Assembly: GCF_001613545.1 (NCBI RefSeq)
Contig: NZ_BDCO01000002.1
Location: 1,240,001 to 1,304,000, forward strand
Origin: Terrimicrobium sacchariphilum
GTDB lineage: Bacteria > Verrucomicrobiota > Verrucomicrobiia > Chthoniobacterales > Terrimicrobiaceae
DNA: 64,000 nt
Reading direction: 5' to 3'
Below, piece after piece: positions 4,162 through 37,088 of the stretch. The translations under genes were made by a program, and so were the position numbers. Below the pieces are notes generated by a model. That model was not told where the DNA came from, did not search any database, and saw nothing but the letters and a program-made list of their open reading frames with translations. Each line of letters begins with the position of its first letter. Positions within the stretch are counted from its first letter, which is position 1.

Positions 4162-4917
4162 TCAGGCTTTTCGCAAGCGCACCCCGGCTTTGACCAGCGC
4201 CCGGACTTCCCGCTTTTCCGGCTCCGCATTGGTCACCCACTCATGGATCATGTCCCAACCGGCAAAGCGTACCGTGCTGGGCTGGCTCCACTTGGAGAAA
4301 TCCGCGAGGAGGATGCTTCTTTTCGAACGGGCAAGGATCGCCCGCTTCATCTCGGCTTCCGTCAGCTCTGTGGTGAAACATCCTTCCGCATCCAGTCCCG
4401 AGGCACCGAGAAAGGCATAATCGGCCTTGAGATGGGCCAGGGCGCCGATGGCCTCCGCGCCGATCAGCGCTCCACTCACGCGGCGAAGCTCGCCGCCGAG
4501 GCAGAGAAACTCCGCATCTCCCTGCAGGGACAGCGCGGTGAGGGCGACGGAATGGCTGATGATGCGGACGTCCTTTCGCCGGAGCAGCATCTTGCCAGCT
4601 TCCAGGCAGGTGGAGCCTGCATCGATGAATACACAGGCTCCCGGCGGGATCAGTGCCGCGGCGGCCTCAGCGATCGACCTCTTCGCACTGCGATTGCGCA
4701 ATAGTCGCTCATCGAAGGAAACCTCCGAGCGCACGTAGCGGGGATCGAGCACGCCTCCATGAACGCGCAGGATGTCACCGCTTTTCTCCAGGTCGGTCAG
4801 ATCCCGGCGAAGAGTCGCGGGCGACACCTTGACCATCTCCTGGAGCTCGGAAAAACCGAGCCGACGATGCTCGCGAACGATCTTGCGGATCGCATTCTGG
4901 CGTTCCTCTGCAAACAT
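4162..4917 (-). CDS. DeoR-family transcriptional repressor
   Basis: A 251-aa regulator with an N-terminal winged helix-turn-helix (about residues 5-57; SPATLRRDLTDLE is the recognition-helix region) and a C-terminal DeoR sensor domain resembling phosphosugar isomerases (SFDERLLRN, IDAGSTCLEAGKML). DeoR proteins usually sense phosphorylated sugars. The gene lies 56 bp downstream of the PfkB kinase gene on the same strand, so it may be the last gene of the sugar-phosphate operon and its regulator. The palindrome at 9615-9628 is a candidate operator (inference). It converges on the GH2 gene ending at 4127. Confidence 0.9.
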   Translation of the reverse strand: MFAEERQNAIRKIVREHRRLGFSELQEMVKVSPATLRRDLTDLEKSGDILRVHGGVLDPRYVRSEVSFDERLLRNRSAKRSIAEAAAALIPPGACVFIDAGSTCLEAGKMLLRRKDVRIISHSVALTALSLQGDAEFLCLGGELRRVSGALIGAEAIGALAHLKADYAFLGASGLDAEGCFTTELTEAEMKRAILARSKRSILLADFSKWSQPSTVRFAGWDMIHEWVTNAEPEKREVRALVKAGVRLRKA

Positions 4918-4973: not shown

Positions 4974-5996
4974 TCAGGGAAATGCGATGTAGCCCCAGGC
5001 GTCGCCCAGCGACAGGCTTTCCGAGGCGCTGGTGATGCCCCCGGAGGTGCTGGCGGAACGCAGGGACGCGGCAGCTGTGCAGACTCCCATTTGCAAACTT
5101 TGCGGCATCTCCCAGCCTTCATGGACTCCGAGGAGCAGCCCGGCTGCGAATGCATCTCCCGCCCCGGCGGCACCTGCGATCTGGTCTTTCGGCAGGTTTA
5201 CACGTCCCTGCCAGATTTCCTCGCCTGTCGTGCTCCGGGCATATGCTCCTTCCGAGAGGTGGATGACCACCCATCGACCTACGCCTCCGCGGAGGAGGGC
5301 CAGCGCTGCATCTCTCAGACCGCTTTCCAGATGCCGGTCCGAGTCATCACGCGTGGCATGTCCTGTGATGCGCTCGGCCTCCACCTCGTTGCAGACAAGG
5401 ATGTCGATCTCCGGGAGAGCCGGGGAGACGACCTTCGCGTAGTCGGGACGCTCGACGCTGACCAGATCCACCACGCGGAGGAATCCCCGCTGGCCTGCTT
5501 CGCGCAGCACTCGTGCCGCGAGTGTTCCGTGCTCCGGGTCGGATGCGTCCAGGGCATCGAGCAGTCCGATATAGCCGAGATAGAAGATGCGGGCGTTCAT
5601 CTTTGACCAGTCGAAGTGCCCGGCTGCGAGATGCCGGTTTGCTCCCGGTTGATGAAAGAACGTGCGACGTCCGCTCGATCGGACGGTCATCACGTCCGTA
5701 TACGAGGTGGGCGCGGTGGGATGGCGACAGAGCAGGGAGGTATCGATCCCCACCGCCTGACAATGATCGAGAACCCAGTCGCCTTCTGCGTCCGAGCCGA
5801 TCAAGCCCACGCCTTGCAGCGGAAATGTCGCGCCGAGCTTTGCCAGATCACACAGGATGTTGAATGGTCCGCCGCCATTGTTGCACTCTTCGAGCTCGAT
5901 GTTTGCGAGTGAATCCTGCGTGGGATAGCCGTCGATGATCTTCGTCTTGTCCACGATCCAGTTGCCGGCTGCAACGATGCCACCTTTAGTGCTCAT
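4974..5996 (-). CDS. PfkB-family carbohydrate kinase
   Basis: A 340-aa ribokinase-superfamily sugar kinase. It has the N-terminal PfkB glycine region (NNGGGPFNILCDLAKLG, residues 40-56) and the C-terminal signature AGAAGAGDAFAAG with the GAGD anion hole and catalytic Asp (D281). It would phosphorylate a ketose or ketose-phosphate with ATP. Its start overlaps the stop of the isomerase-like gene by 4 nt (ATGA), so the two are coupled, consistent with a sequence of aldose to ketose to phosphoketose to aldol cleavage. The specific sugar is unknown. Confidence 0.9.
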   Translation of the reverse strand: MSTKGGIVAAGNWIVDKTKIIDGYPTQDSLANIELEECNNGGGPFNILCDLAKLGATFPLQGVGLIGSDAEGDWVLDHCQAVGIDTSLLCRHPTAPTSYTDVMTVRSSGRRTFFHQPGANRHLAAGHFDWSKMNARIFYLGYIGLLDALDASDPEHGTLAARVLREAGQRGFLRVVDLVSVERPDYAKVVSPALPEIDILVCNEVEAERITGHATRDDSDRHLESGLRDAALALLRGGVGRWVVIHLSEGAYARSTTGEEIWQGRVNLPKDQIAGAAGAGDAFAAGLLLGVHEGWEMPQSLQMGVCTAAASLRSASTSGGITSASESLSLGDAWGYIAFP

Positions 5997-6568
5997 TGCC
6001 GACCCTCGCTGATGAGCCGGATTTGCGCTGGCGCATCCTCCTCGATTCCCGGGTAACGACCGATGTCGGGATCGACAAAAAAGTTGTCATTCAGGTCATC
6101 GTTGGCCGTGGAAACCTCCCCGATGATGCACTCGTCGGAAACCGGCCGGAACTCGTGGTAGATCCCCGGCACCAGGGTGACGCGGCAGCCTGCTTCAAGA
6201 ATGATCGTCGACCCGGCATGAACGGTCTCCACCCGGTGGTTTACCGGGATCGTAAACGACCCGTCGCCGGCGCGGTCCGGATGAGCGGGCCACACTGTCA
6301 CGGCGAGTCTCCCCCAGCGGCAGATGATGTCCTCCTTCTTTTTGAGATGGGTATGGGCCGGGGTTGTCATGCCCTTTTGGGCATACATGAGCTTCTCGCA
6401 ATACTCGGGCTCCTCGGCCAGGTTGACGAGTACGAGGCCGGATTTCCTCCAGTCGCCCAGGCCGAAATCGGTGAGATCCCAGCGAGGATCAGGCGGCAGC
6501 GCCCATCCATGGTCTTGAAAACATTGCCGCGCGGAGCGGACGAGATAGTTGATATCACTTCTTTTCAT
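5993..6568 (-). CDS. D-lyxose ketol-isomerase-like cupin protein
   Basis: A 191-aa cupin that matches the D-lyxose/D-mannose isomerase family (Lyx_isomer) over its full length. Candidate metal ligands are H72 and H74 in PAHTHLKKKED, E79, and H138 in GIYHEF. These enzymes interconvert aldose and ketose with Mn2+; D-lyxose to D-xylulose and D-mannose to D-fructose are the known activities. It lies between an aldolase-like gene (9-bp gap) and the PfkB kinase (4-nt overlap), so it probably supplies the ketose for that kinase. The family call is strong; the physiological substrate is inferred. Confidence 0.85.
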   Translation of the reverse strand: MKRSDINYLVRSARQCFQDHGWALPPDPRWDLTDFGLGDWRKSGLVLVNLAEEPEYCEKLMYAQKGMTTPAHTHLKKKEDIICRWGRLAVTVWPAHPDRAGDGSFTIPVNHRVETVHAGSTIILEAGCRVTLVPGIYHEFRPVSDECIIGEVSTANDDLNDNFFVDPDIGRYPGIEEDAPAQIRLISEGRQ

Positions 6569-6577
6569 GGGCTGGGA

Positions 6578-7624
6578 TCAGTTGGAGTAGCTTTTGCCTC
6601 CATTCGTAAGGTTCAGGTCGTCTTCCAGGGGGCGATGTGAGGCGATGCCGAGTGACTTCAGCTCGGCATGATACGAGCGCACCGCCTCCTTCGGCGAGAG
6701 TTCTCCATCGACGATATGGCGCAGGTGCTTGATGAACGTGAGCGGATGCTCGGAGAGATTGATCTTTCGTCCAAAGAGCGCCACCCACGCGCCGTGCTTG
6801 CGCGCATCGTGGATCAGTTGGAATGCATCGAGGGTCGTGCCAGCGCTGCCGCCGAGAATGCCCACGATCAGGCTGGGATCGTAGGAGACCAGCTCCTCGA
6901 GAGGGGCTGGCCCGTTGTAGGGAATCTTCAGAAAAAGCGGCCTGCCCACCGACGTCACTCCGGCGAGCATTCGCACGATGTGATCATTCAGAAAGGGACC
7001 GATTTGCCTTGGATCGATCCCGGGATCGATGTTGGGGTTGAAAACCTCCAGAAAGTACCGGAAGCCCTTGCGCTCCGCGTCGCCGCGGAAGGATGCAAAC
7101 TCCAGCAGGGACTGGTAATCCCAGTCGATATTGTTCGTGAACGTGATCGAGTACAGGCCGAGGTCGGCGCCCAGATAGGGCTGGGTGCAGTTGGTTTGCA
7201 TGCGGCCATACTTGATGTGCTCGATGGATGCGGTGTGAAATGCGCGCGACGGATGAGAGGCGTATTTTCCTCCTCGTACGACCCAGATGTCAGTCGTGTC
7301 GTTGGCGCGCGCTGCCGGGGTTATCGGCGAGTCCTCGAAGAGCCGTTCCCGGATCGCGAGTTGCTCGAGGTTCGATGCCGAGAGCAGCACGATGTCGACG
7401 AGCCCTTGCGAAATCACGTCCCGGATCTGCTGACGATAATCCGCCAGGGTTTTCCATCTCCCTTGCGACTCGCTCTGGTTGAATTTGCTTTCCTCCGGCC
7501 CAGGCGCGGTGATGCCAAAGGCCATGTCGGCATCCTTGGCATCCGCAATGATGAAGTCAGCCGCAGTCGCCCGCCCCGCGCGAATGCGGGCGAGCTTTTC
7601 GTCGAGTCGTTTCGGGGTAGACAT
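6578..7624 (-). CDS. DeoC/LacD-like aldolase homologue, function uncertain
   Basis: About 348 aa, taking the start at MSTPKRLDEK; an upstream start at 7642 would overlap the preceding gene. The C-terminal half resembles class I DhnA/LacD-type aldolases: a Lys in LFLKIPYNG (K233) at the place of the Schiff-base lysine, a GILGGSAGT phosphate-binding-like loop (about 255-262), and VALFGRKINLSEHP. The N-terminal half (ADFIIADAKDADMAFG, DIVLLSASNLEQLAI) fits an altered TIM barrel. It is encoded between an oxidoreductase and a sugar isomerase in a five-gene operon that already has a canonical class I aldolase. It may therefore act on a different phosphosugar or be a catalytically altered paralogue. 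It is often annotated as hypothetical. Confidence 0.6.
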   Translation of the reverse strand: MSTPKRLDEKLARIRAGRATAADFIIADAKDADMAFGITAPGPEESKFNQSESQGRWKTLADYRQQIRDVISQGLVDIVLLSASNLEQLAIRERLFEDSPITPAARANDTTDIWVVRGGKYASHPSRAFHTASIEHIKYGRMQTNCTQPYLGADLGLYSITFTNNIDWDYQSLLEFASFRGDAERKGFRYFLEVFNPNIDPGIDPRQIGPFLNDHIVRMLAGVTSVGRPLFLKIPYNGPAPLEELVSYDPSLIVGILGGSAGTTLDAFQLIHDARKHGAWVALFGRKINLSEHPLTFIKHLRHIVDGELSPKEAVRSYHAELKSLGIASHRPLEDDLNLTNGGKSYSN

Positions 7625-7628
7625 AAAC

Positions 7629-8753
7629 TTACAAGGGCACAACGGCCTTTCCGGTATGGGCCCGGAGCGCGGCGTCGAAGAGTTCGTGGCTTAGCACCGC
7701 CTCCTCCGGGGTCACGCATCCGAACTTTTCGCCCAGCAGACCGGCGCGCTCGGATAGGAATGCCGCCCACATCTGCATGAAGCAATCCGGGAAGCCCGGC
7801 TCAAAGATCCCGCCCGTGATGGTGGGAAATGGTCCGTGAAATCCGAGATCCGTCCGCTGCCAAAGCTGTTCCTTGCCGCGCTGGAAGGTCCACAGCGTCT
7901 TGGGTTCCTTGGTCGAATAGCGGATGCCTCCGTCCGTGCCCAGGATCTCGATGAACCACGTATTGGTCTCTCCGGGAGCCAGTCGTTTCATCTCGAATCG
8001 CGCCGGTACATCCCTGCCGTCGATCTCCACATCCGTGTGCAGCAGGGCATTGTCCCAGGTGTCGCAGGGCGTCATGCCACCCTTGCCATCCGGGCGCTCC
8101 AGGTAGATTTTCTGCAGTTGGGCGTATACCCGCTTCGGCTTCCAGCCGAGCCGGAATGGCAGATGCACGGCATGCATGCCGAGATCTCCCATCACCCCGA
8201 TCTCTCCGCATGTCCTGACCTGGCGTTTCCAGTTCGCGGGTTTCGTGGGATCGAGATCGCTGCTATGGTGAAACCCGGAGCGAATCTCCAGGACCTTGCC
8301 CCACGCTCCGGTGCGTGCGGCGTGGTAAACGCGTTGCGGCCCCGGCAGGAAAGGGAACTCGGAGCTGCACCGCACGAAACGCCCCGAGGCGCGGGCGGCT
8401 TCCGCGATGGTACGTGCCGCCGCCAGATCGAGGCCGAAGGGCTTTTCCGCGAAGAGGTCTTTGCCGGCATTGAGCACATCGAGATAGATGCTCTCATGCA
8501 GATTGTGCGGGACGGCCACGTACACCACGTCGACTTCCGGGCTGGATAGCAGCTCGCGATGGTCTGCGGTGAGCAGTCGCACGGAGGGAATCTGGCGAAA
8601 CCACTCGCGCTGCTTCTCCGCCAGGTCGCACACCGCGGTCAGTTCCGCCCGGACGGGAAAGCCATCGAGGACGAACCATCTCGCCAGGGCGCTGGCCACC
8701 TCGCGGCCCATGAGGCCACCACCGATGATGCCGATTTTTACGGGAGTGCTCAT
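7629..8753 (-). CDS. Gfo/Idh/MocA-family oxidoreductase
   Basis: A 374-aa NAD(P)-dependent sugar or polyol dehydrogenase-like protein. The Rossmann motif GIIGGGLMG is at residues 8-16, followed by VYVAVPHNLHESI and the family EKPFGLD stretch (EKP lysine), then a C-terminal alpha/beta substrate domain. The start at MSTPVKIGIIGGG was chosen because it places the Rossmann fold at the N-terminus and leaves 4 bp after the upstream aldolase gene. Probable role: oxidation or reduction of the sugar before isomerisation and phosphorylation in this operon. Substrate unknown. Confidence 0.88.
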   Translation of the reverse strand: MSTPVKIGIIGGGLMGREVASALARWFVLDGFPVRAELTAVCDLAEKQREWFRQIPSVRLLTADHRELLSSPEVDVVYVAVPHNLHESIYLDVLNAGKDLFAEKPFGLDLAAARTIAEAARASGRFVRCSSEFPFLPGPQRVYHAARTGAWGKVLEIRSGFHHSSDLDPTKPANWKRQVRTCGEIGVMGDLGMHAVHLPFRLGWKPKRVYAQLQKIYLERPDGKGGMTPCDTWDNALLHTDVEIDGRDVPARFEMKRLAPGETNTWFIEILGTDGGIRYSTKEPKTLWTFQRGKEQLWQRTDLGFHGPFPTITGGIFEPGFPDCFMQMWAAFLSERAGLLGEKFGCVTPEEAVLSHELFDAALRAHTGKAVVPL

Positions 8754-8757
8754 CGTG

Positions 8758-9588
8758 TTATCGGAGGAAGGCCGCGGCGTCGCTCGCGGTTGCCCCATCG
8801 TGAACGATGGCCATGAGCGCCTTCGTCATGCCTGCGGGGTTGGGGTGTTGGATGACATTGCGGCCATAGACGATTCCCGCCACGCCTTGCCCGATGAGAT
8901 CTTCCGTGCGCTGGAGTATCTCCGCATCCGCCGCCCGCCCACCGCCGCGCACGAGCACGGGGATGCGGCCCGAGATCTCGACGACCTTGTGGTACACCGA
9001 GACGTCGTCGGTGGGGTCGGCTTTGATGATGTCGGCGCCCAGTTCGACAGCCTGGCGGACGAGAGGGAGGATTTTCTCCGGATCGCCGTCGACCATGTAG
9101 CCGCCTGCCTTTTCATTGGGCTGGAAGACCAGGGGTTCGATCATGAGCGGCATGCCGTAGCGATCGCAGTCCGGCTTGATCTTCAGGATGTTCTGAATGC
9201 ACTGATCCGTCACCTCCGGCTGGTTTGGTATGCGAAACAGATTCACCACCACGCAGGTGGCATCGAGGCGCAATGCCTGCTCAACGGGGTTTTCGATCAT
9301 CCGGCTGAACAGATGGGTGGGGAGTTCCTTGCCGTACACATTGGCCACGTCGGTGCGAAGCACGAGCGAAGGCTTTTGTCGGCCCGGGATGGATTGCAGG
9401 ACCGGAGCCTGGCCCACTGTGAGCTGGATCGCATCGGGCGCGGCTGCGACCAGAGTTTCCACGGCTTTCCCGATGTCCTCGATCCCGGAGAGAAAGGCAT
9501 GCTCGTTGAAGAATCCATGATCGATGGCGACATCGAAGCAGCGTTGGGATTTCGCGTTGAAAAGTCTGTGGAGTCGGAATGTTTTCAT
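8758..9588 (-). CDS. Class I fructose-bisphosphate aldolase (DhnA/FbaB type)
   Basis: A 276-aa DeoC/LacD-fold aldolase. VAIDHGFF at the N-terminus, the Schiff-base lysine in ELGADIIKADPT (K189), and the phosphate loop VLVRGGGRAAD (214-217) plus GIVYGRNVIQHP follow the archaeal-type DhnA pattern. It cleaves a ketose-phosphate to dihydroxyacetone phosphate and an aldehyde, which suits the downstream PfkB kinase. First gene of the minus-strand operon; a promoter with an embedded palindrome lies just upstream (9605-9634). Confidence 0.85.
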   Translation of the reverse strand: MKTFRLHRLFNAKSQRCFDVAIDHGFFNEHAFLSGIEDIGKAVETLVAAAPDAIQLTVGQAPVLQSIPGRQKPSLVLRTDVANVYGKELPTHLFSRMIENPVEQALRLDATCVVVNLFRIPNQPEVTDQCIQNILKIKPDCDRYGMPLMIEPLVFQPNEKAGGYMVDGDPEKILPLVRQAVELGADIIKADPTDDVSVYHKVVEISGRIPVLVRGGGRAADAEILQRTEDLIGQGVAGIVYGRNVIQHPNPAGMTKALMAIVHDGATASDAAAFLR

Positions 9589-9690: not shown

Positions 9691-9987
9691 CTAAGCCTGG
9701 CCGTAATAGGCGCCAGCGCCGTGCTTGCGGAAAAAATGTCTGTCCAGCAAGGGCTGGGACACGGAAGACGCCGCCTGGTTGAGGTGGAGGGTTTTCATTG
9801 CCATCTCAGCGACGATCTCGAGGGCAAAAGCGGTCTCCCCGGCCTTTTCTCCGCGGTGGAGCATGCCATCGGCCTCGGCTGCAGGCGTCCGGCGCTGGTT
9901 CTGGATGAGGTAATGGATCGCCTCGTGGAGGGGCGTTTCACCGCGGGATTCCTTCTTGCGCAGCAGGTCCTGCCGCTCAGTGCACAA
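9691..9987 (-). CDS. Small protein or C-terminal gene remnant, unknown
   Basis: A minus-strand stretch ending at TAG 9691-9693 has the GC-rich third positions of its neighbours from about 9987 onward and reads as a plausible soluble protein of about 98 aa (LHEAIHYLIQNQRRTP, LHLNQAASSVSQPLLDRH, ending KHGAGAYYGQA). The frame is open upstream to 10269, but the upstream part loses coding character. Candidate starts are TTG 9987 or ATG 10029. It may be a small gene or the 3-prime end of a decayed larger one. I do not recognise the family. Confidence 0.35.
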   Translation of the reverse strand: MCTERQDLLRKKESRGETPLHEAIHYLIQNQRRTPAAEADGMLHRGEKAGETAFALEIVAEMAMKTLHLNQAASSVSQPLLDRHFFRKHGAGAYYGQA

Positions 9988-10114
9988 TAACGAATGCGGA
10001 GTGCCCCCTTTCCCTCGTGCGACCCTCATCGGAAGCACCTGGATGGCGGGAGATACAGTGCGCCAAAGCGCTGTTGCGAGAAATTGACCCGGCCATACGC
10101 CTCCCACGGGGAAA

Positions 10115-22429: not shown

Positions 22430-24700
22430 TTATTCCGGGAGCAACTTGATGCTGTGTGTCCCCGGGCCGAATTCAGCACTGGCGGGTTTCCGGAAACCCT
22501 TGGGCGCGACGAACGTTCCGCGGGAGTTTTCTGGAATGGTCAGGACGGCCTCCAGGGAACCATCGACGATCGTCCACGAGATGCCGGTCGGACCCTGAGG
22601 CGTCTGCAGTCGGGCTTTGGCCCAGGTGATCGTGCCGCCCGGCGAGGGCTGAAATACGACATGCCGGTAACCGGGATCACTCTCGTCGAGATCAAGGCCT
22701 GCGACATTTCGATACATCCAATCGCCCACGGCACCGTAGGCATAATGATTGAAGGAATTCATTCCCTCGTCCTGAAAACCGCGTTCAGGCGTCCAGCCGT
22801 CCCACCGCTCCCAGATGGTGGTCGCTCCGTTTTTGACGGGGAAGAGCCAGGACGGAAAGGTCTCCTGCTCCAGCAGGCGGTAGGCGATGTCGAGGTATCC
22901 CTCCCGGGTGAGAACGTCGAGAATGTACGGGGTGCCGACAAAGCCCGTGGCGATATGGTACTCGCGCTGCTTGATGTCGTGGACGAGTTCCCTCGTGGTC
23001 GTGGCGCGCACTTCCTCCGGTACGAGGTCAAAATGCAGCGACAGCACGTAGGCGGTCTGCGTGCCGGAGGCAATGAGACCCTCAGGCGTTACGTAACGCC
23101 GTTGGAATGCCTGGACGACCCGCGAGTGAAGTTCCGTGTACTTCTCCGCATCCTCCGCCTTGCCGAGGACCGTGGCGATGCGCGCCATGAGGCTGGCATC
23201 ATAGGCCAGGAAGGCCGTGCCGATCAGGTCCTTTGGGGTCGCGCCTTCGGTCTTCCCGCTGCCATCGAGGGCGAGCCAGTCCCCATAGCCCGGGTAAGCC
23301 GTGGAGTCGGGATGGGAGCGGATCAGATTGATGCTCGCCTCGGTGCTGATGTACTGGATGTACCGCTGCATCGAGTCGTAATGATCCGCGAGGATCTCCT
23401 TGTCTCCGTAGCAAAGGTACATCGTCCATGGGCAGATGATCGCGGCATCGGACCATGCCGGCCCTCCATCCTCATGGCCGAAGAATTTGACCGAGGGAAT
23501 GACCTCGGGCACGCCCCCGCTGGGTTTCTGAGCATCGCGGATGTCCTGCACCCATTTGTGGAAGAAACGCCGGACGTCGCGGTTGAAGGCTGCCGTGCGT
23601 ATGAAAACCTGCGCATCGCCGGTCCAGCCCAGGCGCTCGTTGCGTTGCGGGCAGTCCGTGGGCGCCTCGAGGAAGTTGCTGCTCTGGCCCCACCGGATAT
23701 TGTGCTGGAGCTGGTTGAGAAGGGGATTTGAGCAGGAAAACTCCCCGGTGGACGGCGCGTCGGATTGAAGCACGAGGCCGGTGATGTCGATCTCGGCCCC
23801 GACGGGCAGGCCCTCCACTTCGACATAGCGGAAGCCGTGGAAGGTGAAACCAGGCTCCCACGTTTCTTCGCCGCCACCCTTGCAGATATAGGTGTCGGTG
23901 GCCCGGGCGCCCCGCAGATTTTCTGTATAGAGCGATCCGTCGGCATTGAGGATTTCGGCATGGCGGAAGGTCAGCGACGTATCGCGGGGGGCATTCACCC
24001 GGATGCGGATACGTCCGCTGAAGTTCTGCCCCATGTCGTAGCGATGATTGCCGAGCGGCTGGGGATGAAACTCGTCGGTTTGGCGTACGCCCGGGTAGTC
24101 GATGGTGTCGAGGATGATGTTCCTGGCTGGTCCGGTCTGCGCTGGAGTCCATGCAGAATCGTCGTACCCCGCCTCGCTCCAGCCGGTGAGTTCCTTCCGT
24201 GCGTCGTAGATTTCGCCCATCAGGAGATCATTCTCCAGGATGGGGCCGGTGGCGGTTGTCCACGAGCCATCGGTGACGACGTGGGTGCCGGAACCATCCG
24301 AAAAGGAAATTTCGAGATCGGCCAGCAGTTCTGGTTTCGCGCCATAGCCCTGCCGTTCGCCCCAGCCGACGTGGCCACAGTACCAGCCATCGCCCAGCAC
24401 GACACCGAGCACGTTCTTTCCCGGTTTCAGCAGGGAGGCGACGTCGTAGGTCTGGAGCGGCACCCTGGTGTCGTAGTCCATCCAGCCCGGAGCGAGCGCC
24501 CGGTCGCCCACCCGCCTGCCATTGATCTCCGCCTGATAAAGACCCAGCGCAGTGATATGGAGAGTGGCTTTGGCGAGAGGACGATCCAGCCAGATCTCTT
24601 TGCGAAAATACGGCGCGGGAGCCATGGTTTTTTCATCACCCTGGGTGGAGGAGGAAATCCATTGAGAAGAGGAATCGAGGGAAGCCATGTGGTGGGACAT
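22430..24700 (-). CDS. Alpha-L-rhamnosidase, glycoside hydrolase family 78
   Basis: A 756-aa inverting enzyme that releases terminal L-rhamnose. The N-terminal Bac_rhamnosid_N beta-domain (about 38-200, GLYQAEINGRRVGD, APGWMDYDTR) precedes the (alpha/alpha)6 catalytic domain with DCPQRNERLGWTGDAQVF (D349, E355, D362) and ATTIWERWDGW (E631). No signal peptide, so cytoplasmic or exported by another route. Divergent from an AraC-type regulator, which probably senses rhamnose. Confidence 0.93.
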   Translation of the reverse strand: MSHHMASLDSSSQWISSSTQGDEKTMAPAPYFRKEIWLDRPLAKATLHITALGLYQAEINGRRVGDRALAPGWMDYDTRVPLQTYDVASLLKPGKNVLGVVLGDGWYCGHVGWGERQGYGAKPELLADLEISFSDGSGTHVVTDGSWTTATGPILENDLLMGEIYDARKELTGWSEAGYDDSAWTPAQTGPARNIILDTIDYPGVRQTDEFHPQPLGNHRYDMGQNFSGRIRIRVNAPRDTSLTFRHAEILNADGSLYTENLRGARATDTYICKGGGEETWEPGFTFHGFRYVEVEGLPVGAEIDITGLVLQSDAPSTGEFSCSNPLLNQLQHNIRWGQSSNFLEAPTDCPQRNERLGWTGDAQVFIRTAAFNRDVRRFFHKWVQDIRDAQKPSGGVPEVIPSVKFFGHEDGGPAWSDAAIICPWTMYLCYGDKEILADHYDSMQRYIQYISTEASINLIRSHPDSTAYPGYGDWLALDGSGKTEGATPKDLIGTAFLAYDASLMARIATVLGKAEDAEKYTELHSRVVQAFQRRYVTPEGLIASGTQTAYVLSLHFDLVPEEVRATTTRELVHDIKQREYHIATGFVGTPYILDVLTREGYLDIAYRLLEQETFPSWLFPVKNGATTIWERWDGWTPERGFQDEGMNSFNHYAYGAVGDWMYRNVAGLDLDESDPGYRHVVFQPSPGGTITWAKARLQTPQGPTGISWTIVDGSLEAVLTIPENSRGTFVAPKGFRKPASAEFGPGTHSIKLLPE

Positions 24701-24759
24701 TAGCGGCTTTCCCGGATTGCTTCCTTGATGATGACGCCAGATTATAGCATTATTCCGCC

Positions 24760-25647
24760 ATGCGACGGGGGCGTAATCTGCTGCGTGAGGCGTTCTTTTC
24801 GGACCCCAGGCTGGGCGTTGTGGTCTGTCGGCAGAGAGACCAGTCCCCGATCGAGATGCATGGTCATGAGTTTTGTGAGATCGTCATTGTGCTGGGAGGG
24901 ACGGGGCGGCATTTCACCCCGCAGGGATCGCGCTCAATCCTCGCTGGAGACGTGCTCGTGGTGAACCGGAAGCAAAGCCACGGCTACGGGGATACGCAGG
25001 GGCTGGATATCGCCAACATCCTCGTCGCGGATGAGGTGATGCGTGATGCCGAGGTGGCGCTCGGGTCCATGCCGGGGTATCACGCCTTGTTTACGATGGA
25101 GGCTGTACGAAGAAGCTCCGGGGCGGGCGATGCCCATATCCATCTCCGTTCCGATGAACTCGCCTGGGTGGAGAATCTGGTGGAGTCGATGGAGGCGGAG
25201 GGTCGCCGCCCGGACGATGGCGGTGGCGCGATGATTCGGGTCTGGTTCCTGCTCTTGGTGGGGTTTCTCGCCCGGCGCTATCAGCCCCGCGATGAGAAAA
25301 GACCGGGTCTCGATGCGCGCATTGGCACGGTGCTCGCACGCATCGACAGGCACCCGGAGCATCCGGTCTCGCTCGGGGAGCTTGCGCGCGGGGCCGGGAT
25401 GTCGGAGCGATCGTTCTTGCGCAGCTTCAAGGAGGCCACCGCTCTCTCCCCGGTCGACTATGTGCTGCGGGCGAGGGTGCGCAAAGCCGAGCGGCTGCTC
25501 GTTGCGGCGCAGCCCCGCCAGAGCATCACCGAGATCGCGTTTACCTGTGGGTTCAATGACAGCAACTATTTCTCGCGGGTCTTCCGCCGCTTTGCCCTGT
25601 GCTCGCCGAGGGATTTCCGGGCGGCGCGGCGAGGTTTGCTCCGGTGA
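24760..25647 (+). CDS. AraC-family transcriptional regulator
   Basis: A 295-aa regulator with an N-terminal cupin sensor (HGHEFCEIVIVLGGTGRHF, LAGDVLVVNRKQSHGY) and two C-terminal AraC helix-turn-helices (SLGELARGAGMSERSFLRSF; ITEIAFTCGFNDSNYFSRVF). The architecture matches RhaS/RhaR. It is divergent from the alpha-L-rhamnosidase gene with only 59 bp between the start codons, so it most likely activates that gene. The last 82 bp overlap antisense with the next lacI-type gene. Confidence 0.92.
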   Translation: MRRGRNLLREAFFSDPRLGVVVCRQRDQSPIEMHGHEFCEIVIVLGGTGRHFTPQGSRSILAGDVLVVNRKQSHGYGDTQGLDIANILVADEVMRDAEVALGSMPGYHALFTMEAVRRSSGAGDAHIHLRSDELAWVENLVESMEAEGRRPDDGGGAMIRVWFLLLVGFLARRYQPRDEKRPGLDARIGTVLARIDRHPEHPVSLGELARGAGMSERSFLRSFKEATALSPVDYVLRARVRKAERLLVAAQPRQSITEIAFTCGFNDSNYFSRVFRRFALCSPRDFRAARRGLLR

Positions 25648-26696
25648 TTTTCACCCGGCGAGGAAGGCTGTGTGCTTTCCTGCGGAGTCGCGCTCGGACC
25701 CGCAAACCATGTGCCGCTGATCTGTACCGAACAGGGATGTTCCGGCACGCCATACTCGTTGCGGTTGATTTGATCGATGACGAGTTTGGCTGCGGCCTGC
25801 CCGACTTCAAAGTTGTTTTGCCGGATCCCCGCGAGATTGGTCCAGGTTGAGTCCAGGCCGAGATGCGCGAAGCCGATCTCGCCCGGGATCTTCACTCCTG
25901 CCTCCTGTAGGTAAATGAGCGGCTCATGCTCAGCCGCCAGCACGGCGTCGGGTCGCTGTTTCTCGACCCATTGCAGGAATCTCGTGCGATCCCAGGTTTC
26001 CGTCCAGTGCGGAGGGATGATGGCCAGGCCTCCCTGCAAGCTCCAGCCGAGACATGCCGAGAGAGCGCGATAGTCGACCGTGGCGATCCAGTCGGCACGG
26101 CTCATGGCGAGGCCGATGCGGCGATATCCCAGCGCTGCGAGCTGGGTCATTGCCAGCCAGGCGTTTCGGTAGTGGTCGGTCCCTGCAAAATGACAGGGGA
26201 CATTCAGCTGCCGGTTGCCGACCGATGCCATTGCGTAGTTTTTCCATAAGGCGGCATCCCAGGGCGGAATCACTCCGGCCTGAATGATGATCCCTGGCAC
26301 TCTCCTGGCGGTCAGCGCGGTAAACAGCTTCCGCGGGTTGTCGAAGTAGTCCTCGATGAGAAACTCATCGATGCTGAATCCCGCCTCATCGAGCGTATCG
26401 CGATATCCCTGGTAGGACTCCCGATTGGTGGAGATTAGGCCCCGATTCCGTCGGGTTTTGCGATCGGTGAGGCAGGCGATTATCGCCCGCATCCGGCGGC
26501 GCGCGTTGCTGCGGCGATGGCCTGTCATCAAGGCCGTGACCATCGGGTTGGGCTTATAGCCCAGTGTCCTTGCCACCTCGGTGATACGCTTGCGTACTTC
26601 TTGCGAGACTCCCGGACGATTCCGCAGCGCGCAACTTACAGAAAAGATACTGACCTTGGCGATCTCTGCGATCTGACGGTAAGTGGGGTGGCTCAT
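25566..26696 (-). CDS. LacI-family transcriptional regulator
   Basis: A 376-aa repressor with helix-turn-helix TYRQIAEIAKVSIFSVSCALR (residues 5-25), hinge GYKPNPMVTALMTGHR and a sugar-sensing core (LGYRRIGLAMSRADWIATVDY, GFAHLGLDSTWTNLAGI). The last about 35 residues are very basic and of low complexity (AKRRKTREK at the end). They are encoded in DNA overlapping the 3-prime end of the AraC gene by 82 bp. Divergent from the PEP-CTERM/GH71 operon that begins at 26800, the likely target. Confidence 0.9.
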   Translation of the reverse strand: MSHPTYRQIAEIAKVSIFSVSCALRNRPGVSQEVRKRITEVARTLGYKPNPMVTALMTGHRRSNARRRMRAIIACLTDRKTRRNRGLISTNRESYQGYRDTLDEAGFSIDEFLIEDYFDNPRKLFTALTARRVPGIIIQAGVIPPWDAALWKNYAMASVGNRQLNVPCHFAGTDHYRNAWLAMTQLAALGYRRIGLAMSRADWIATVDYRALSACLGWSLQGGLAIIPPHWTETWDRTRFLQWVEKQRPDAVLAAEHEPLIYLQEAGVKIPGEIGFAHLGLDSTWTNLAGIRQNNFEVGQAAAKLVIDQINRNEYGVPEHPCSVQISGTWFAGPSATPQESTQPSSPGENHRSKPRRAARKSLGEHRAKRRKTREK

Positions 26697-26704
26697 TCTG
26701 ATGA

Positions 26705-26714
26705 TAACGTGTTA
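26705..26714. promoter_or_regulatory. Weak operator candidate
   Basis: TAACGTGTTA has matching arms TAAC/GTTA and lies between the divergent lacI-type gene and the PEP-CTERM operon. Short and imperfect in the centre, so only a suggestion. Confidence 0.2.
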
Positions 26715-26799
26715 GGTATAAAACCAGTTGTTGAAGCAGGTTCAAGCCGATACTTCTGCTCAGCAACACCAAGCGAACTTCCCTAACCCCCGAAAAATC

Positions 26800-27852
26800 A
26801 TGAAACTTTGGATTTCCACCATCCTAATGCTAGTGAGTCCCGTCCTGGCAAACGCGACGATGCTCTATTACCTGCCGTTTGATCAAAATGGCTCGGCCTC
26901 TCTGGCAAACATGGGTTCCGTCTCCGGCACGGCCACGGCAGTAACCGGCGGCGGAGGAGGCGCTGCGCCGACTGCCTCGACATCGGTCGCCCCGAATCTT
27001 GGCTCCACGTATTCGGAGCGATTCACAGGCTCTGGCGTCAATGCCGGAACCGTTGTGCTGCCGTCCAGCACCACCGAGTTTCGCCTGAGCTCCAGCAGCC
27101 AGAAGATGACCTTATCGACCTGGGTGTACTGGAACGGCGCTCTGGCTGCGGGGCAGCTCTCGGGGGTCGTGAACAACTATGTCTCGGCATCTAATAGCGG
27201 CTGGGGCATTTCCATCACCGATGTCGGGGAGATCCGTTTCAACTACGGCACGGGAACAAGCTCGACCAACCGCAAAAGCTCGACCGGCGCCGTGGTGGCC
27301 GGTCAGTGGACTTTGCTCACTGTGACGTGGGATGGCTCGAAGGCAAATCCGCTCACCTTCTATGCTAACGGTCTTTCTTTGGGGTCGACCGCAACCGGCG
27401 CGAGTTCTCTGGCCAGCAATGCCGAGCCGATCAGATTGGGCGTAACCACTGCCTCGACTTACAATTCGCTCAATGGCAACATGGATGATCTGGCCATGTG
27501 GGACACTGCTCTCGGTGCCGGCGAGGTTCGCGCTCTGGTGACCGCGCCGACTCTGCTGAACGGATATAATGCGGGCGTCATGAATCAGCTTTTCCTCGTG
27601 GCAGGCGGGACATCGTCGAGTGCCACGATCGATGCTCTCAACTGGACCCAGGCGACCGGGTTGAATGTTTCAGGCCGGTCCCTTGGCGATACGTGGCAGA
27701 GCGGTGGCAATTATTACATGTGGCTCTCGGGAGATGCTTTAAATGCCGCCGGCCTCGTTGCGACGAGCGTGCCCGAGCCCGGCACGGTGGTCCTGCTCGG
27801 TCTCGCGGCGGGCGTTCTGTTGCTGAGATTCAGCCGACGTGCGAAGGCTTGA
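26800..27852 (+). CDS. LamG-domain PEP-CTERM protein
   Basis: A 350-aa exported protein with a signal peptide (MKLWISTILMLVSPVLANA) and a concanavalin-like LamG domain (about 90-260; MTLSTWVYWNG, LTVTWDGSKANPLTFYANG, GNMDDLAMWDTAL). The C-terminal sorting signal is SVPEPGTVVLLG, a hydrophobic helix and a basic RRAKA end. Probably a surface glycan-binding protein, and the first gene of the operon with the GH71-like enzyme. Confidence 0.85.
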   Translation: MKLWISTILMLVSPVLANATMLYYLPFDQNGSASLANMGSVSGTATAVTGGGGGAAPTASTSVAPNLGSTYSERFTGSGVNAGTVVLPSSTTEFRLSSSSQKMTLSTWVYWNGALAAGQLSGVVNNYVSASNSGWGISITDVGEIRFNYGTGTSSTNRKSSTGAVVAGQWTLLTVTWDGSKANPLTFYANGLSLGSTATGASSLASNAEPIRLGVTTASTYNSLNGNMDDLAMWDTALGAGEVRALVTAPTLLNGYNAGVMNQLFLVAGGTSSSATIDALNWTQATGLNVSGRSLGDTWQSGGNYYMWLSGDALNAAGLVATSVPEPGTVVLLGLAAGVLLLRFSRRAKA

Positions 27853-27879
27853 TCGTGCGTGAATGCGAAAGTCTCCTCT

Positions 27880-29919
27880 ATGAAGTATAAACTTGTCCAT
27901 CTCGCCCTTGCCGTATTTTGTGCGGCGACCCTGCACTCTTATGCAGCGGAGCCTGTCTATCAACTCCGGTTCGACGCCGGTGAACTCAAGAACACTGGCT
28001 CGGCTGGCGGCGAGGCCCAGCAGGCCGGCATCCTTTCGCTGGTCGATGTCGTGATCGATGCGGACCTGGGTATCTATGCGGCAAATCTGAAAATGTCGGC
28101 CAATGGTAGCCAGGGAGGCGCTTTGGCCTTTCCAGAGAGCGGCTCGCGACTCCAACTCGGCGGCTTGAGTGACGAACTCACCCTCGCCATGTGGGTGAAG
28201 TGGCGCGGACCTCACGCTCATGCCGATAAACGTCACGGACTCGTCAGCACCATGCCTGCCAAGAAGGACGCGGGCTGGGCGTTCTCGATTCTCGAGGACG
28301 GACGGCTTCAGTTCAACTGGGTCAACGAAAAGGGGGGCAGTTTCCGCACGTCGAGTGCGAGTCTGGCCGAGAACCAGTGGACGCATGTCGCCATGCGGTG
28401 GCAGGGTGGGGAGAAATCGGGCGGACTGGAGTTTTTCATCAATGGCGAGCCTGTGGGGGTGAATCAGAAATGGACGGGAGGCGGTCCGATCAAGAAGAGC
28501 GGGCTCAATCTTATCCTTGGGGTGATGGACGAGGCCGCCTATCTGCCCCTCAATGGCTCGCTCGCCGAGGTCAATCTTTTCGGGAGTGCTCTTTCCGATG
28601 AGAATATCCGGGCTTTGGCTCAGGCCCCCCGCCAATCCGCCCTTCCCAAAGAGCCTGCTCGCAACGTAGCGAAGGCCGCCCGCCCGCCGCGCATGGTCTT
28701 TGCGCACTACATGGTGGCATTGCCTACGGCGGGAGGCGACGCCAGCGTCGAGGATTACAAAAAGGAGATTCAACAGGCGCAGGCACTGGGCATCGACGGC
28801 TTTGCTTTGAACTCCGGTGGCTGGACGATTGAGAAAAAGATCCCCTCCTACAAGGAGCGCACCAGCCGCATCTATGAGGCAGCTAAGCAACTCGGCACGG
28901 GATTCAAGCTTTTCATCTCGGCTGATTTTGCCACCAAGCTGAACTTCCCAGAGTTCGCGGACATGGTTCTGTCATTTCGCAATCATCCCAATCAGCTCGA
29001 GGTGGATGGCAAGCCCGTCATTTCGAGCTACAAGGGGGAGAATATCGACCTGACCCGCAGTGCTCGCACGGCCTTCACCGACGAGAATGCGATTTTCCTC
29101 ATTCCATTTTTGCGCTCGAACCCCCAGGCCGAGCTTCCTTCCCAGGAACTGGTGGAAGGAGTGTTTCGCGCCAATCAGGACCTCGATGGATTTTTTGATT
29201 TTGGTGCGGCGGGAAGCCCTCAGGATCTCTGTGCCGCGACGAAGCGCATGGCAGGTGTGTGGATGGGCGCGGGCAAGGTCTTCATGGCCCCCGTCACTCC
29301 CTACTATCGCGGACGGGGAAAGAATTTCCGGATGTTTGAAAGCCGTGGCTTCGAGGGCATGGCCATGCAGTGGGAGAATGCGATCAATCTCGGGGTGGAC
29401 TGGGTTGAAATCGTCACCTGGAACGATTGGGCGGAGTCCAGCTACATCGCCCAGTTTGGCGCCCCGGCGGATACTCAGTTCTGGGACGATCATTATGGAA
29501 AGATGCTTTCGCATCGCGGGTTTGCCGAGGCGAGCAAGCACTACATCAAGTGGTTCAAGGACGCGAAGGAACCCGCGATCTCAGAGGATCGGTTTTTCTA
29601 CTTCTATCGCCTCCATCCGAAGTCGACTCCGGCACCGGACGGTCGATTCCCTCGCGGTGTCGAGAATGCGGAGGATCGCATCTACGCCACCGTGTTTCTC
29701 AAAGCGCCAGCCGTCTTCACGATAGAGTGCGGCGATGTCTCCGAGAGATTCCCGCTGGAGGCGGGTGTGCATCACGTGTCCAGCGCCTTTGCTCAGGGGA
29801 CGCCCCGGTTTCAGGTCATCCGCGATGACCAGGTCGTCCTGGCCAAAACGGCCGAGATGCCCATCAGCGGCGACTCCGCCTGGGGAAACTTTAACTATTT
29901 TTCCTCGTCCAGTTTATAA
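27880..29919 (+). CDS. LamG domain fused to GH71-like alpha-1,3-glucanase
   Basis: About 679 aa with a signal peptide (LVHLALAVFCAATLHSYA) and an N-terminal LamG-type concanavalin domain (about 40-245; LTLAMWVKWRGP, LNGSLAEVNLFG). A TIM barrel matching GH71 follows (RMVFAHYMVALP start, GIDGFALNSGG, GFFDFGAAGSP, VEIVTWNDWAESSYI). GH71 enzymes cleave alpha-1,3-glucan (mutan). A short C-terminal beta domain ends the protein. The start at ATG 27880 gives the signal peptide; GTG 27859 is an alternative. It lies 27 bp after the LamG PEP-CTERM gene. Confidence 0.82.
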   Translation: MKYKLVHLALAVFCAATLHSYAAEPVYQLRFDAGELKNTGSAGGEAQQAGILSLVDVVIDADLGIYAANLKMSANGSQGGALAFPESGSRLQLGGLSDELTLAMWVKWRGPHAHADKRHGLVSTMPAKKDAGWAFSILEDGRLQFNWVNEKGGSFRTSSASLAENQWTHVAMRWQGGEKSGGLEFFINGEPVGVNQKWTGGGPIKKSGLNLILGVMDEAAYLPLNGSLAEVNLFGSALSDENIRALAQAPRQSALPKEPARNVAKAARPPRMVFAHYMVALPTAGGDASVEDYKKEIQQAQALGIDGFALNSGGWTIEKKIPSYKERTSRIYEAAKQLGTGFKLFISADFATKLNFPEFADMVLSFRNHPNQLEVDGKPVISSYKGENIDLTRSARTAFTDENAIFLIPFLRSNPQAELPSQELVEGVFRANQDLDGFFDFGAAGSPQDLCAATKRMAGVWMGAGKVFMAPVTPYYRGRGKNFRMFESRGFEGMAMQWENAINLGVDWVEIVTWNDWAESSYIAQFGAPADTQFWDDHYGKMLSHRGFAEASKHYIKWFKDAKEPAISEDRFFYFYRLHPKSTPAPDGRFPRGVENAEDRIYATVFLKAPAVFTIECGDVSERFPLEAGVHHVSSAFAQGTPRFQVIRDDQVVLAKTAEMPISGDSAWGNFNYFSSSSL

Positions 29920-29934
29920 CCCCAGCCACTCAGC

Positions 29935-30657
29935 ATGCTCTCCTCCAGGCCATCACGAGTGTCACAGGGATTCTCCTTGATGGAGATCCTGACGGCGGTT
30001 GCGATCGTTGCGATCTGTTCGGCGATGATCTTTCCCTACGTGGGGAAACTCCGAGACAAAGCAATCTCGGCGCGATGTGTGGCCAACCTGCGCTCCAGTC
30101 ACGTGGCGCTCAGCGCCTTTGCCGCAGACGCCGGGAGCTGGCCGTCCGTGAACATGAACCACGAGACGAACCCGACCGGGGAGGGCACCCAGCTCTGGTT
30201 CGTTCCCCTCATACGCGACCAGTATGTCGATACCTCGGCGGTCCGGATCGGCGGGGTGAATTGCCTGCAGGCCGCCTCGCTTCTCTGCCCCGGCAACAAG
30301 ATACTGAAGAAGGAACCCTATCCCTGGACCAGTGCGCCTTATCCTGTCTACCCCAGCTACGCGATGAATGTTTACTGGGGAGAGCGGACAGTCTCTCCGC
30401 TGCGGGTTCCCATCGGGGCCGTGGTCAATGGAGGTGCCATTCTTTTGATCGATAGCACGGTCAATGGGAGCCGCTCGATCTATGCCACTGACCCCACTCA
30501 TTTGCAGTGGGACTCTGCGAATTGCAAGATCCCCAAGGATATTCATCCGGATGGGGCTCATGCCCTTCTCGCCAATGGAAGCGTGATATCCGTGAGTCCG
30601 GCGACTCATCCCGACATCCAGGACCCCAGGTACTGGAACCCAAGATACCAGAGATAA
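29935..30657 (+). CDS. Prepilin-type pseudopilin-like protein
   Basis: A 240-aa protein with prepilin leader SQGFSLMEILTAVAIVAIC (cleavage before Phe, Glu at +5), a hydrophobic helix and a PulG-like C-terminal domain (HPDGAHALLANGSVISVSP). It begins 15 bp after the GH71-like gene and is 25 bp before the propeller protein, so it is in the same operon. A second solitary pseudopilin besides the one at 19925. Confidence 0.82.
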   Translation: MLSSRPSRVSQGFSLMEILTAVAIVAICSAMIFPYVGKLRDKAISARCVANLRSSHVALSAFAADAGSWPSVNMNHETNPTGEGTQLWFVPLIRDQYVDTSAVRIGGVNCLQAASLLCPGNKILKKEPYPWTSAPYPVYPSYAMNVYWGERTVSPLRVPIGAVVNGGAILLIDSTVNGSRSIYATDPTHLQWDSANCKIPKDIHPDGAHALLANGSVISVSPATHPDIQDPRYWNPRYQR

Positions 30658-30682
30658 TCCATAGCGTTTTCGAAAACAAACC

Positions 30683-32326
30683 ATGACGAGTGTGTTGCTG
30701 TCTGAAGGAAAAGGAAATACATACAGGCTGTATAATGGCATTGAAATTCCGGCCGACTGGCCTCCGTCCTCCCTCCGGATTTCGGATGAGGTTCCCTTCC
30801 CGGATCTCGGTACCGCCTTTGCGGTGGATGATCCCCGGGAGCTGACGGCCAGGAGGCTCCCCCCGGCTGTTCCCTATCTCGATCACCCTCCGGAGGTCGT
30901 TCTCATTGATGTCGGCCGGCAGTTGTTCATCGACGATTTTTTGATCGAGGAGACCGACTTGGTCAGGGAATACCACCTGGCGCGAAAGTATGAGGGCAAC
31001 CCGGTGTTGCAATCCGAGACGGACTTGGAAAAACCGGAGGGCCGCATGGCGGGTGCGGCTCCGAAAAGCGGCGGACTCTGGTGGAGTCCCGAGGAGGGAG
31101 TCTTCAAACTTTGGTATGAGGCCGGGTGGTGTGAATCCACCGCCTATGCGACGAGCGGGGATGGGCTGCACTGGACACGCCCCGATCTGGGCGGGTCAAA
31201 CCGCATTGTTCCCGAGTATCCGCCGGATTCCGTGACCGTTTTCTACGATCCGTGGGCCAGATCCTCCGGAGAGCGTTTCAAGATGCTCTTGAGGCGGCCC
31301 GGCAGTTGGGAGAGCGGCTTTGCGATGGTATCGGGGGACGGGCTGAACTGGTCGGAGCCGGTGAAAACCGGACTGATGAATGACCGCAGCACCATGTTTT
31401 ATAATCCCTTCCGGAAGAAATGGATCTTTAGCATTCGTTCCCTGGCGTACGGTCGCACCCGTCACTACTTTGAGCATGACGATTTTTTGCAGGGAACTCA
31501 GTGGCGTGATGACGAGCCGGTTTTCTGGGCGTCCGCAGACGATCTGGATTTACCTGATCCTCAGGTGGGCGTCCCCACCCAGTTGTACAACCTCGATGCG
31601 GTCGCCTACGAAAGCGTCATGCTGGGGCTCTTTGAGATCCTGCGCGGCCCCAATAACTTGGATTGCGCCGCTGCAGGGCGTCCCAAGATCACGGATTTGA
31701 CGCTCGCCTACAGCCGGGACGGCTTTCATTGGCACAGGCCGGATCGGCGGTCTTTCATTGCCTCGACGAACAGGGAGGGCGATTGGGACCGGGGGTACAT
31801 TCAGTCCGTTGGGGGCGTTTGTGCCGTGGTTGGAGACGAGTTGTGGTTCTTTTACAGTGGTGCCAAAGGCGGGGATAAGGATCGCGATCCTGAGGGCGGC
31901 ATGTACGCCAACCGGAGCATGGGTATCGCGAAGCTGCGTCGCGACGGTTTTGCGTCGATGCGCGCGGGAGCGTGCGTCGGCACGCTGCTCACTCGACCGC
32001 TTCGATTTTCAGGAGCGTATCTCTTTGCCAATGTCGATTGCCCGGCAGGCGAGCTGCGTGCAGAGGTGCTGGATGAAAGTGGTCGCGTTTTCCCGGGATT
32101 CGGCGTCGAGGACTCCATCCCCGTACAGGGTGACCATGCAAAAGTTCTGCTGGCGTGGAGATCCGGTCGCAGTCTGTCGGATCTGGCGGGACAGAATGTC
32201 CGGTTCCGATTTCATCTTGGGAACGGCGACCTTTTCTCCTTTTGGGTGTCCCGTTCCGAGTGCGGCGAAAGCGGAGGTTATCTTGCCGCTGGCGGTCCTG
32301 GATTCGCGGGATTGGTTGATGAGTGA
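30683..32326 (+). CDS. Five-bladed beta-propeller glycosidase-like protein
   Basis: A 547-aa protein with repeated propeller-type segments (GLWWSPEEGVFKLWYEAG, YATSGDGLHWTRPDLG, LAYSRDGFHWHRPDRR) like GH32/GH43/GH130 clan enzymes, and a C-terminal beta-sandwich (LFANVDCPAGELRAEVLD). No signal peptide is seen. Catalytic acids cannot be assigned with confidence. Last gene of the operon 26800-32326. Confidence 0.65.
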   Translation: MTSVLLSEGKGNTYRLYNGIEIPADWPPSSLRISDEVPFPDLGTAFAVDDPRELTARRLPPAVPYLDHPPEVVLIDVGRQLFIDDFLIEETDLVREYHLARKYEGNPVLQSETDLEKPEGRMAGAAPKSGGLWWSPEEGVFKLWYEAGWCESTAYATSGDGLHWTRPDLGGSNRIVPEYPPDSVTVFYDPWARSSGERFKMLLRRPGSWESGFAMVSGDGLNWSEPVKTGLMNDRSTMFYNPFRKKWIFSIRSLAYGRTRHYFEHDDFLQGTQWRDDEPVFWASADDLDLPDPQVGVPTQLYNLDAVAYESVMLGLFEILRGPNNLDCAAAGRPKITDLTLAYSRDGFHWHRPDRRSFIASTNREGDWDRGYIQSVGGVCAVVGDELWFFYSGAKGGDKDRDPEGGMYANRSMGIAKLRRDGFASMRAGACVGTLLTRPLRFSGAYLFANVDCPAGELRAEVLDESGRVFPGFGVEDSIPVQGDHAKVLLAWRSGRSLSDLAGQNVRFRFHLGNGDLFSFWVSRSECGESGGYLAAGGPGFAGLVDE

Positions 32327-32390
32327 AAAGCTCGTTTTCCGCCTTTGGCTCGCCGCGTGATCGTTGGGCGACGCGAAGGCATCCGACCTG

Positions 32391-33878: not shown

Positions 33879-37088
<3,210 letters not shown>

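Follow-up and report, generated by a model that had tools for sequence, protein, structure and literature searches.

A five-gene operon of Terrimicrobium sacchariphilum, encoding an aldolase-like protein without a family name, that probably degrades mannose or a similar sugar

Introduction

Clustered genes for a sugar isomerase, a kinase and an aldolase have been described in enterohaemorrhagic Escherichia coli (EHEC), where LmuI of the lmuKAIZYX operon isomerises lyxose and mannose, LmuK has fructose kinase activity and LmuA is an aldolase (PMC10128022). Haloarchaeal ketohexokinase (Khk) makes fructose-1-phosphate (PMC11519228), and the xylulose-1-phosphate pathway, which uses human ketohexokinase and aldolase B, is described as synthetic (PMC5029101). 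The named signature enzyme of the microcompartments of Planctomycetes and Verrucomicrobia (PVM) is a class II aldolase (PF00596). Here we describe an operon of five genes at 9588–4974 on the minus strand of a 64 000-nucleotide stretch of the T. sacchariphilum genome (NZ_BDCO01000002.1, 1 240 001–1 304 000; hereafter the window), which includes a gene for an aldolase-like protein without a family name, designated Ald2.

The operon probably breaks mannose or a similar sugar down to three-carbon units, and we are inclined to read it as a phosphorylating aldol route to which a second module, DhnA-Gfo, has been joined. Literature searches returned nothing on D-lyxose isomerase together with an operon, a kinase and an aldolase, nothing linking lyxose isomerase with Verrucomicrobiota and nothing joining fructose-1-phosphate aldolase with ketohexokinase and bacteria; the papers on ketohexokinase and Verrucomicrobiota among the matches listed appeared to concern host or gut metabolism, as judged by their titles and the openings of their abstracts.

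Results

The five genes lie head to tail in the order DhnA-Gfo-Ald2-LyxI-PfkB, with intergenic gaps in transcription order of 4, 4, 9 and -4 bases. They encode a DhnA-type class I aldolase (8758–9588, 276 amino acids), a Gfo/Idh/MocA dehydrogenase (Gfo; 7629–8753, 374 amino acids), the class I aldolase-like Ald2 (6578–7624, 348 amino acids), a short-form D-lyxose/D-mannose isomerase-like cupin (LyxI; 5993–6568, 191 amino acids) and a PfkB sugar kinase (4974–5996, 340 amino acids), the starts of Gfo and Ald2 having been corrected from 8798 to 8753 and from 7642 to 7624, respectively. Pfam matches above the curated cut-offs were obtained for four of the five: DeoC for DhnA (PF01791, 121 bits), GFO_IDH_MocA for Gfo (PF01408), Lyx_isomer for LyxI (PF07385, 155.3 bits against a gathering cut-off of 20.8) and PfkB for the kinase (PF00294, 104 bits, with a GAAGAGD motif). 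These families and gaps agree with the initial annotation, which had reported five tightly packed genes at 4974–9588, including a lyxose-isomerase-like cupin and a second aldolase-like protein; the latter is an aldolase by its predicted fold.

Ald2 had no Pfam family match and did not reach the gathering score of the DeoC/LacD family (PF01791). Its NCBIfam matches were all below cut-off (at most 25 bits), to models of the DhnA, LsrF and 2-amino-3,7-dideoxy-D-threo-hept-6-ulosonate (ADH) synthase type, and no PDB sequence matched at E ≤1. An AlphaFold2 (AF2) model made from a 22-row alignment, with a predicted local distance difference test score (pLDDT) of 84.5, showed a (beta/alpha)8 aldolase fold. 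Among the top Foldseek ranks for this model were LsrF (rank 1), the Methanocaldococcus jannaschii ADH synthase and an archaeal class I fructose-1,6-bisphosphate (FBP) aldolase, the top 20 matches sharing only 14–19% identity with Ald2. In VIA the model matched 2qji with Z 22.7 and a root mean square deviation of 3.1 over 255 residues, and YihT, sulfohexulose-1-phosphate aldolase, LacD and animal aldolases followed as lower matches. Judged by this predicted fold, Ald2 is a class I aldolase. K233 lies on strand 6 of the model (residues 232–234), which we take to be the site of the Schiff-base lysine in this fold, and E193 lies on strand 5. K233, E193 and N108 were invariant in the 22-row alignment; the nine proteobacterial relatives compared all had these three and D28, and D28, E193 and K233 were kept at matching positions in a 25-row alignment of mostly tailed relatives (see below). 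K233 is therefore the putative Schiff-base lysine. The protein also has conserved motifs of its own, DAKDAD, RANDTTDxW and FLKxxY. A sulfosugar pathway was considered and rejected: sulfofructose-1-phosphate (SFP) and sulfohexulose-1-phosphate aldolases were seen solely as fold matches of Ald2, and an SftI-like isomerase, itself below cut-off, was found near Ald2 at two other loci (L028 and L031) and not in the window.

The other four proteins have better-known relatives. Those of DhnA with solved structures are the ADH synthase MJ0400, LsrF and archaeal FBP aldolase, and its K189, D23 and E151 were invariant in a 22-row alignment. The nearest solved structure to Gfo is a scyllo-inositol dehydrogenase with L-glucose dehydrogenase activity. 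LyxI belongs to a short subclass in which the Pfam match begins at model position 52; aligned with 3kmh it keeps the H-x-H, the E and the later H, presumably the cupin metal residues. The kinase, which matched PF00294 alone and not PF25270, the Khk family, is 35% identical over 334 residues to a Shinella kinase whose gene adjoins Ald2. A myo-inositol-type pathway (IolG/IolC/IolB/IolJ) was rejected, the kinase scoring 66 of the 300 bits required by the IolC model and the operon containing no inositol-specific enzyme. The same genome encodes a second, full-length lyxose isomerase (C2:665307–665987, locus L001; 250 bits) with no kinase or aldolase gene adjoining within the 3.7 kb viewed.

Gene neighbourhoods were compared in a scan of 387 genomes of the phylum and in a set of 104 Ald2 loci (the window, 23 unnamed and 80 named loci; 99 with a called Ald2 and 5 without), in which at least four contigs were counted twice; genes on the same strand with gaps of up to 200 bases were taken as one operon. 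The 80 named loci are the best of at least 564 relatives found by a scan of genome contigs, and among them the closest to the Ald2 of the window are from Verrucomicrobiota. Ald2 occurred in 21 and the window's DhnA in 23 of the 387 genomes, the two meeting only in the genome of the window (1/21 against 22/366, p = 1). At the DhnA loci, the window included, a Gfo cluster was found in 15 of 24 and a PfkB cluster in 13; a xylose-isomerase-like protein, which in the one case compared matched D-xylose isomerase structures (E 1.9e-42), was found in 8 and LyxI in 3. The Ald2 loci of the phylum carry LyxI, PfkB or a Khk family kinase as partners. In the larger set a sugar kinase shared the operon with Ald2 at 46 of the 99 loci, LyxI at 28, both at 23 and a DeoR regulator at 20, and DhnA at only 2. 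The operon in the window thus joins two modules that are usually encoded apart, DhnA-Gfo-PfkB and Ald2-LyxI-kinase. The initial annotation had called for a conserved-neighbourhood analysis, and in this comparison the five-gene order recurs in an Opitutus metagenome-assembled genome (L130) as DhnA-Gfo-Ald2-LyxI-Khk, with a kinase of the PF25270 type (assigned by a model built during the analysis) in the place of PfkB. The four shared genes are about 75, 65, 64 and 63% identical to those of the window. Because this order recurs and the operon partners of Ald2 are recurrent, the five-gene arrangement is more than chance. Another locus (L076) has the order DhnA-Gfo-mutarotase-like-LyxI-Khk, the mutarotase-like label having been given by eye to a protein without a Pfam match. 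The DhnA family also neighbours DeoR and class III aminotransferase genes (L081, L082 and L087), so it serves at least one further pathway.

A beta- or alpha-mannosidase was encoded in 6 of 25 LyxI-Ald2 operons (L027, L029, L043, L097, L120 and L139; the window and four duplicates left out), that of L043 matching beta-mannosidases best in searches of structural sequences and that of L029 belonging to glycoside hydrolase (GH) family GH38. Ald2 relatives were also found in 47 plasmid records, mostly from rhizobia and agrobacteria; of ten regions viewed, one (L178) had no annotation, and in the nine others the relative was labelled ‘hypothetical protein’. On these plasmids Ald2 adjoins an ATP-binding cassette (ABC) transporter and PfkB (L177, L183, L186), occurs with an FGGY kinase, a GlpD-like dehydrogenase and ABC transporter genes (L179, L180, L184, L185) or adjoins DhaK-DhaL, a triose-type kinase (L182); at L181 no partner of these kinds adjoins it directly. 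DhaKL would accept the triose, and FGGY with GlpD would yield a ketose phosphate from a polyol. These contexts fit a ketose-1-phosphate aldolase, and every informative one predicts a ketose phosphate. One relative was found among viral contigs.

Proposed pathway

In the proposed route, LyxI would isomerise an aldose (D-mannose favoured, D-lyxose possible) to D-fructose or D-xylulose, PfkB would phosphorylate the ketose, most likely at C1, and Ald2, as a class I enzyme with K233 as its Schiff base, would split the ketose-1-phosphate into dihydroxyacetone phosphate (DHAP) and glyceraldehyde or glycolaldehyde. DhnA-Gfo would have entered the operon as a second module, one that mostly accompanies PfkB and frequently a D-xylose isomerase; DhnA would most likely cleave a related ketose phosphate, and Gfo might oxidise or reduce a companion sugar. 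D-Xylulose is the expected product of both D-xylose isomerase and lyxose isomerase, and the D-xylose isomerase-type proteins at the DhnA loci count in favour of the route. So does the replacement of PfkB by Khk in L130, which supports phosphorylation at C1 because the haloarchaeal Khk gives fructose-1-phosphate. The pathway suggested by the initial annotation holds best for isomerisation, phosphorylation and aldol cleavage, the steps that the neighbourhoods support; its oxidation or epimerisation by Gfo finds less support as a step of that route, given that the DhnA-Gfo and Ald2-LyxI modules mostly occur at separate loci. Nor is an uncommon sugar required, as mannosidases neighbour Ald2-LyxI operons, and the statement that no standard pathway has this set meets a precedent in the isomerase, kinase and aldolase of lmuKAI (PMC10128022).

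Several observations weigh against the route. LyxI scored 106.8 bits against the D-lyxose/D-mannose isomerase equivalog NF051472, which requires 350. PfkB had no NCBIfam equivalog above cut-off and the genome of the window no match to the Khk family (PF25270), so the kinase family does not give the phosphorylated carbon. A search of the same genome for a Dak1 triokinase found none, and the genome encodes a type I mannose-6-phosphate isomerase; with Khk and Dak1 both absent, a classical mannose route may exist in parallel with the operon. Other glycosidases also adjoin Ald2 (LacZ-type and GH43 in L120, GH31 in L154), so mannose is favoured, not proved. Ald2 stood alone in its operon at 21 of the 99 loci. 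Ald2 and DhnA showed no significant similarity when their profiles were compared (probability 6.6), so the tie between these families rests on fold. In EHEC, neither lmuK nor lmuA was needed on lyxose (PMC10128022).

Microcompartment association and alternative readings

In planctomycetes and some verrucomicrobia Ald2 adjoins PVM-type genes for an aldehyde dehydrogenase, a class II aldolase, PduL, acetate kinase, lactate/malate dehydrogenase and small shell proteins, labels that were read from the sequence by eye without a family scan. Many of the Ald2 proteins carry a C-terminal tail consisting of a linker of variable length and a conserved end segment; in the AF2 model of L159 the linker (338–362) has pLDDT <50 and is followed by a helix (372–387). 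Encapsulation peptides have a like linker and helix architecture (PMC8217296). Reading the tails in this way draws on the hypervariable linker and conserved end, together with the L159 model. Of 37 tailed Ald2 genes, 14 had a cluster of shell, PduL or aldehyde-dehydrogenase genes nearby, as against none of 39 tail-less ones, and one change on the tree, with support 76/84, separates the two forms. At L132 and L133 a tailed Ald2 stands in a LyxI-Khk-Ald2 operon, a link between the cargo form and the sugar operon. A motif of the tail was found in 24 Ald2 proteins and 0 of 784 others, a count that is descriptive because the motif was written from Ald2 tails themselves.

Genes for bacterial microcompartment (BMC) shells were present in 16 of the 21 Ald2 genomes and 48 of the 366 others (p 6e-10), in 6 of 23 genomes with DhnA (p 0.24) and, among genomes with Khk, in 14 of 16 with Ald2 against 22 of 48 without (p 0.004). 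They accompanied Khk in 36 of 64 genomes, LyxI overall in 14 of 93 (p 0.75) and the short LyxI subclass in 12 of 23; all of these figures are uncorrected for relatedness. Ald2 relatives appear to be packed into protein microcompartments. That Ald2 is coupled to BMCs solely when tailed was rejected: shell genes were present also in 32 of 38 tail-less genomes (excluding one named tail-less locus, L108), and of the 23 tailed genomes in which no BMC genes had been flagged close to Ald2, 22 had shell genes. For the same reason co-occurrence alone does not show packaging, and it may reflect a saccharolytic lifestyle. The tails also gave little sign of amphipathicity, the hydrophobic moment exceeding that of shuffled sequences at p <0.05 in 4 of 37 (median p 0.152). 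Ald2 of the window ends at residue 348 with no linker or helix tail, and the genome (G000, 96% complete) had no match to the BMC-H shell family PF00936, so this copy is probably cytosolic. We tentatively suggest, with some doubt, that Ald2 is an overlooked second PVM signature aldolase, of class I and for ordinary ketose-1-phosphates, of which the window would hold a microcompartment-free form with a joined aldolase module. In four genomes (G039, G048, G172 and G381) Khk family kinases and BMC shell genes were seen about 5–15 kb apart on one contig, and Khk may feed PVM microcompartments.

The Khk–BMC link could also mean that Khk serves deoxyketoses, which leads to an unlikely alternative in which Ald2 cleaves 6-deoxyketohexose-1-phosphates of the fuculose or rhamnulose type to lactaldehyde, a PVM substrate, LyxI and PfkB serving another sugar. 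The excess of shell genes in Ald2 and Khk genomes over the 64 of 387 overall would suit it, as would the PVM-type operons of planctomycete Ald2, since PVM microcompartments degrade fucose and rhamnose (PMC4207490). These loci, however, already encode the signature aldolase of PVM, which is of class II, and the mannosidase neighbours and the lack of a BMC match in the genome of the window speak against it. Lyxose isomerase is, moreover, ill-suited to the stereochemistry of L-fucose or L-rhamnose. We regard as still less likely a single linear pathway in which an uncommon sugar is oxidised by Gfo, isomerised by LyxI and phosphorylated by PfkB, with the two aldolases working on intermediates that follow one another or are alternatives: the tight spacing and the repeated order in L130 are what it would predict, but Ald2 and DhnA genomes do not overlap beyond chance and their modules are normally separate. 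Least probable is that Ald2, despite its class I aldolase fold, serves in vivo as a thiolase, transaldolase or epimerase, as the top Foldseek rank of the thiolase LsrF and the low identities might suggest, given that its strand-6 lysine is invariant and that the isomerase, C1-type kinase, DhaKL and GlpD/FGGY contexts predict cleavage of a ketose phosphate.

Adjoining genes and other features of the window

The genome measures 4.75 Mb, and the window sits on its contig 2. A DeoR-family regulator gene (4162–4917, minus strand; PF00455 and PF08220) lies 56 bases beyond the PfkB end of the operon and probably controls it. Between the operon and a heparinase-like gene, about 420 bases with weak open reading frames only (9691–10110) are a probable upstream regulatory region; terminator and promoter scans gave counts near those of shuffled sequence. 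The adjoining genes comprise GH2, melibiase-family, heparinase-like and LacI genes. Elsewhere, a polysaccharide cluster (22430–37088) encodes an alpha-L-rhamnosidase, an apiosidase-like protein, GH71 with a laminin-G domain, a LacZ-type beta-galactosidase and prepilin-like proteins. At 44641–47621 (plus strand) HamA (PF08878, 199 bits) is followed by a DEAD-box helicase in a stretch of low GC content (0.46 against ~0.61); they form a Hachiman-type anti-phage pair that was probably acquired.

Comparison with known systems

The Ald2 family is present in at least Verrucomicrobiota, Planctomycetota, KSB1/Calditrichota and Proteobacteria and has no model in the copies of Pfam and NCBIfam searched, and assigning it a function would fill gaps in the sugar pathways of many genomes. 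It would also test whether PVM microcompartments handle sugars beyond fucose and rhamnose; if the proposals above are true, Ald2 widens the organelle from deoxysugars to mannose/fructose or lyxose/xylulose and provides a natural counterpart of a ketohexokinase–aldolase route so far animal or synthetic. A natural enzyme would then be available for the xylulose-1-phosphate route, now engineered from human genes.

Like PVM microcompartment systems (PMC4207490, PMC8217296), the family includes homologues in PVM-type operons with a linker and terminal helix, unlike them the genome of the window has no shell match and its Ald2 no tail. With the DhnA/FbaB/LsrF class I aldolases Ald2 shares the predicted fold and the strand-6 lysine, but it falls short of all Pfam thresholds and carries conserved motifs not shared with them. 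The human ketohexokinase/aldolase B route likewise proceeds from ketose through ketose-1-phosphate to DHAP and an aldehyde; it consists of animal enzymes or is engineered in E. coli, and Ald2 is merely a fold relative of animal aldolases (about 12% identity). The haloarchaeal route uses a PF25270 kinase of the same kind as that of L130, which the genome of the window lacks, and there fructose-1-phosphate is phosphorylated again and cleaved as FBP (PMC11519228). The EHEC lmu operon resembles the window in clustering a D-lyxose/D-mannose isomerase, a kinase and an aldolase, with an isomerise–phosphorylate–cleave model. It differs in that LmuA is described as 41% identical to the Staphylococcus aureus FBP aldolase and in having its own ABC transporter and two-component regulator, no dedicated ABC sugar transporter being found among the genes adjoining the operon in the window; Ald2, DhnA-Gfo and DeoR are not described for lmu in the available part of PMC10128022. 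The operon is thus a known kind of pathway, similar to lmuKAI, and its most interesting part is the uncharacterised aldolase family to which Ald2 belongs.

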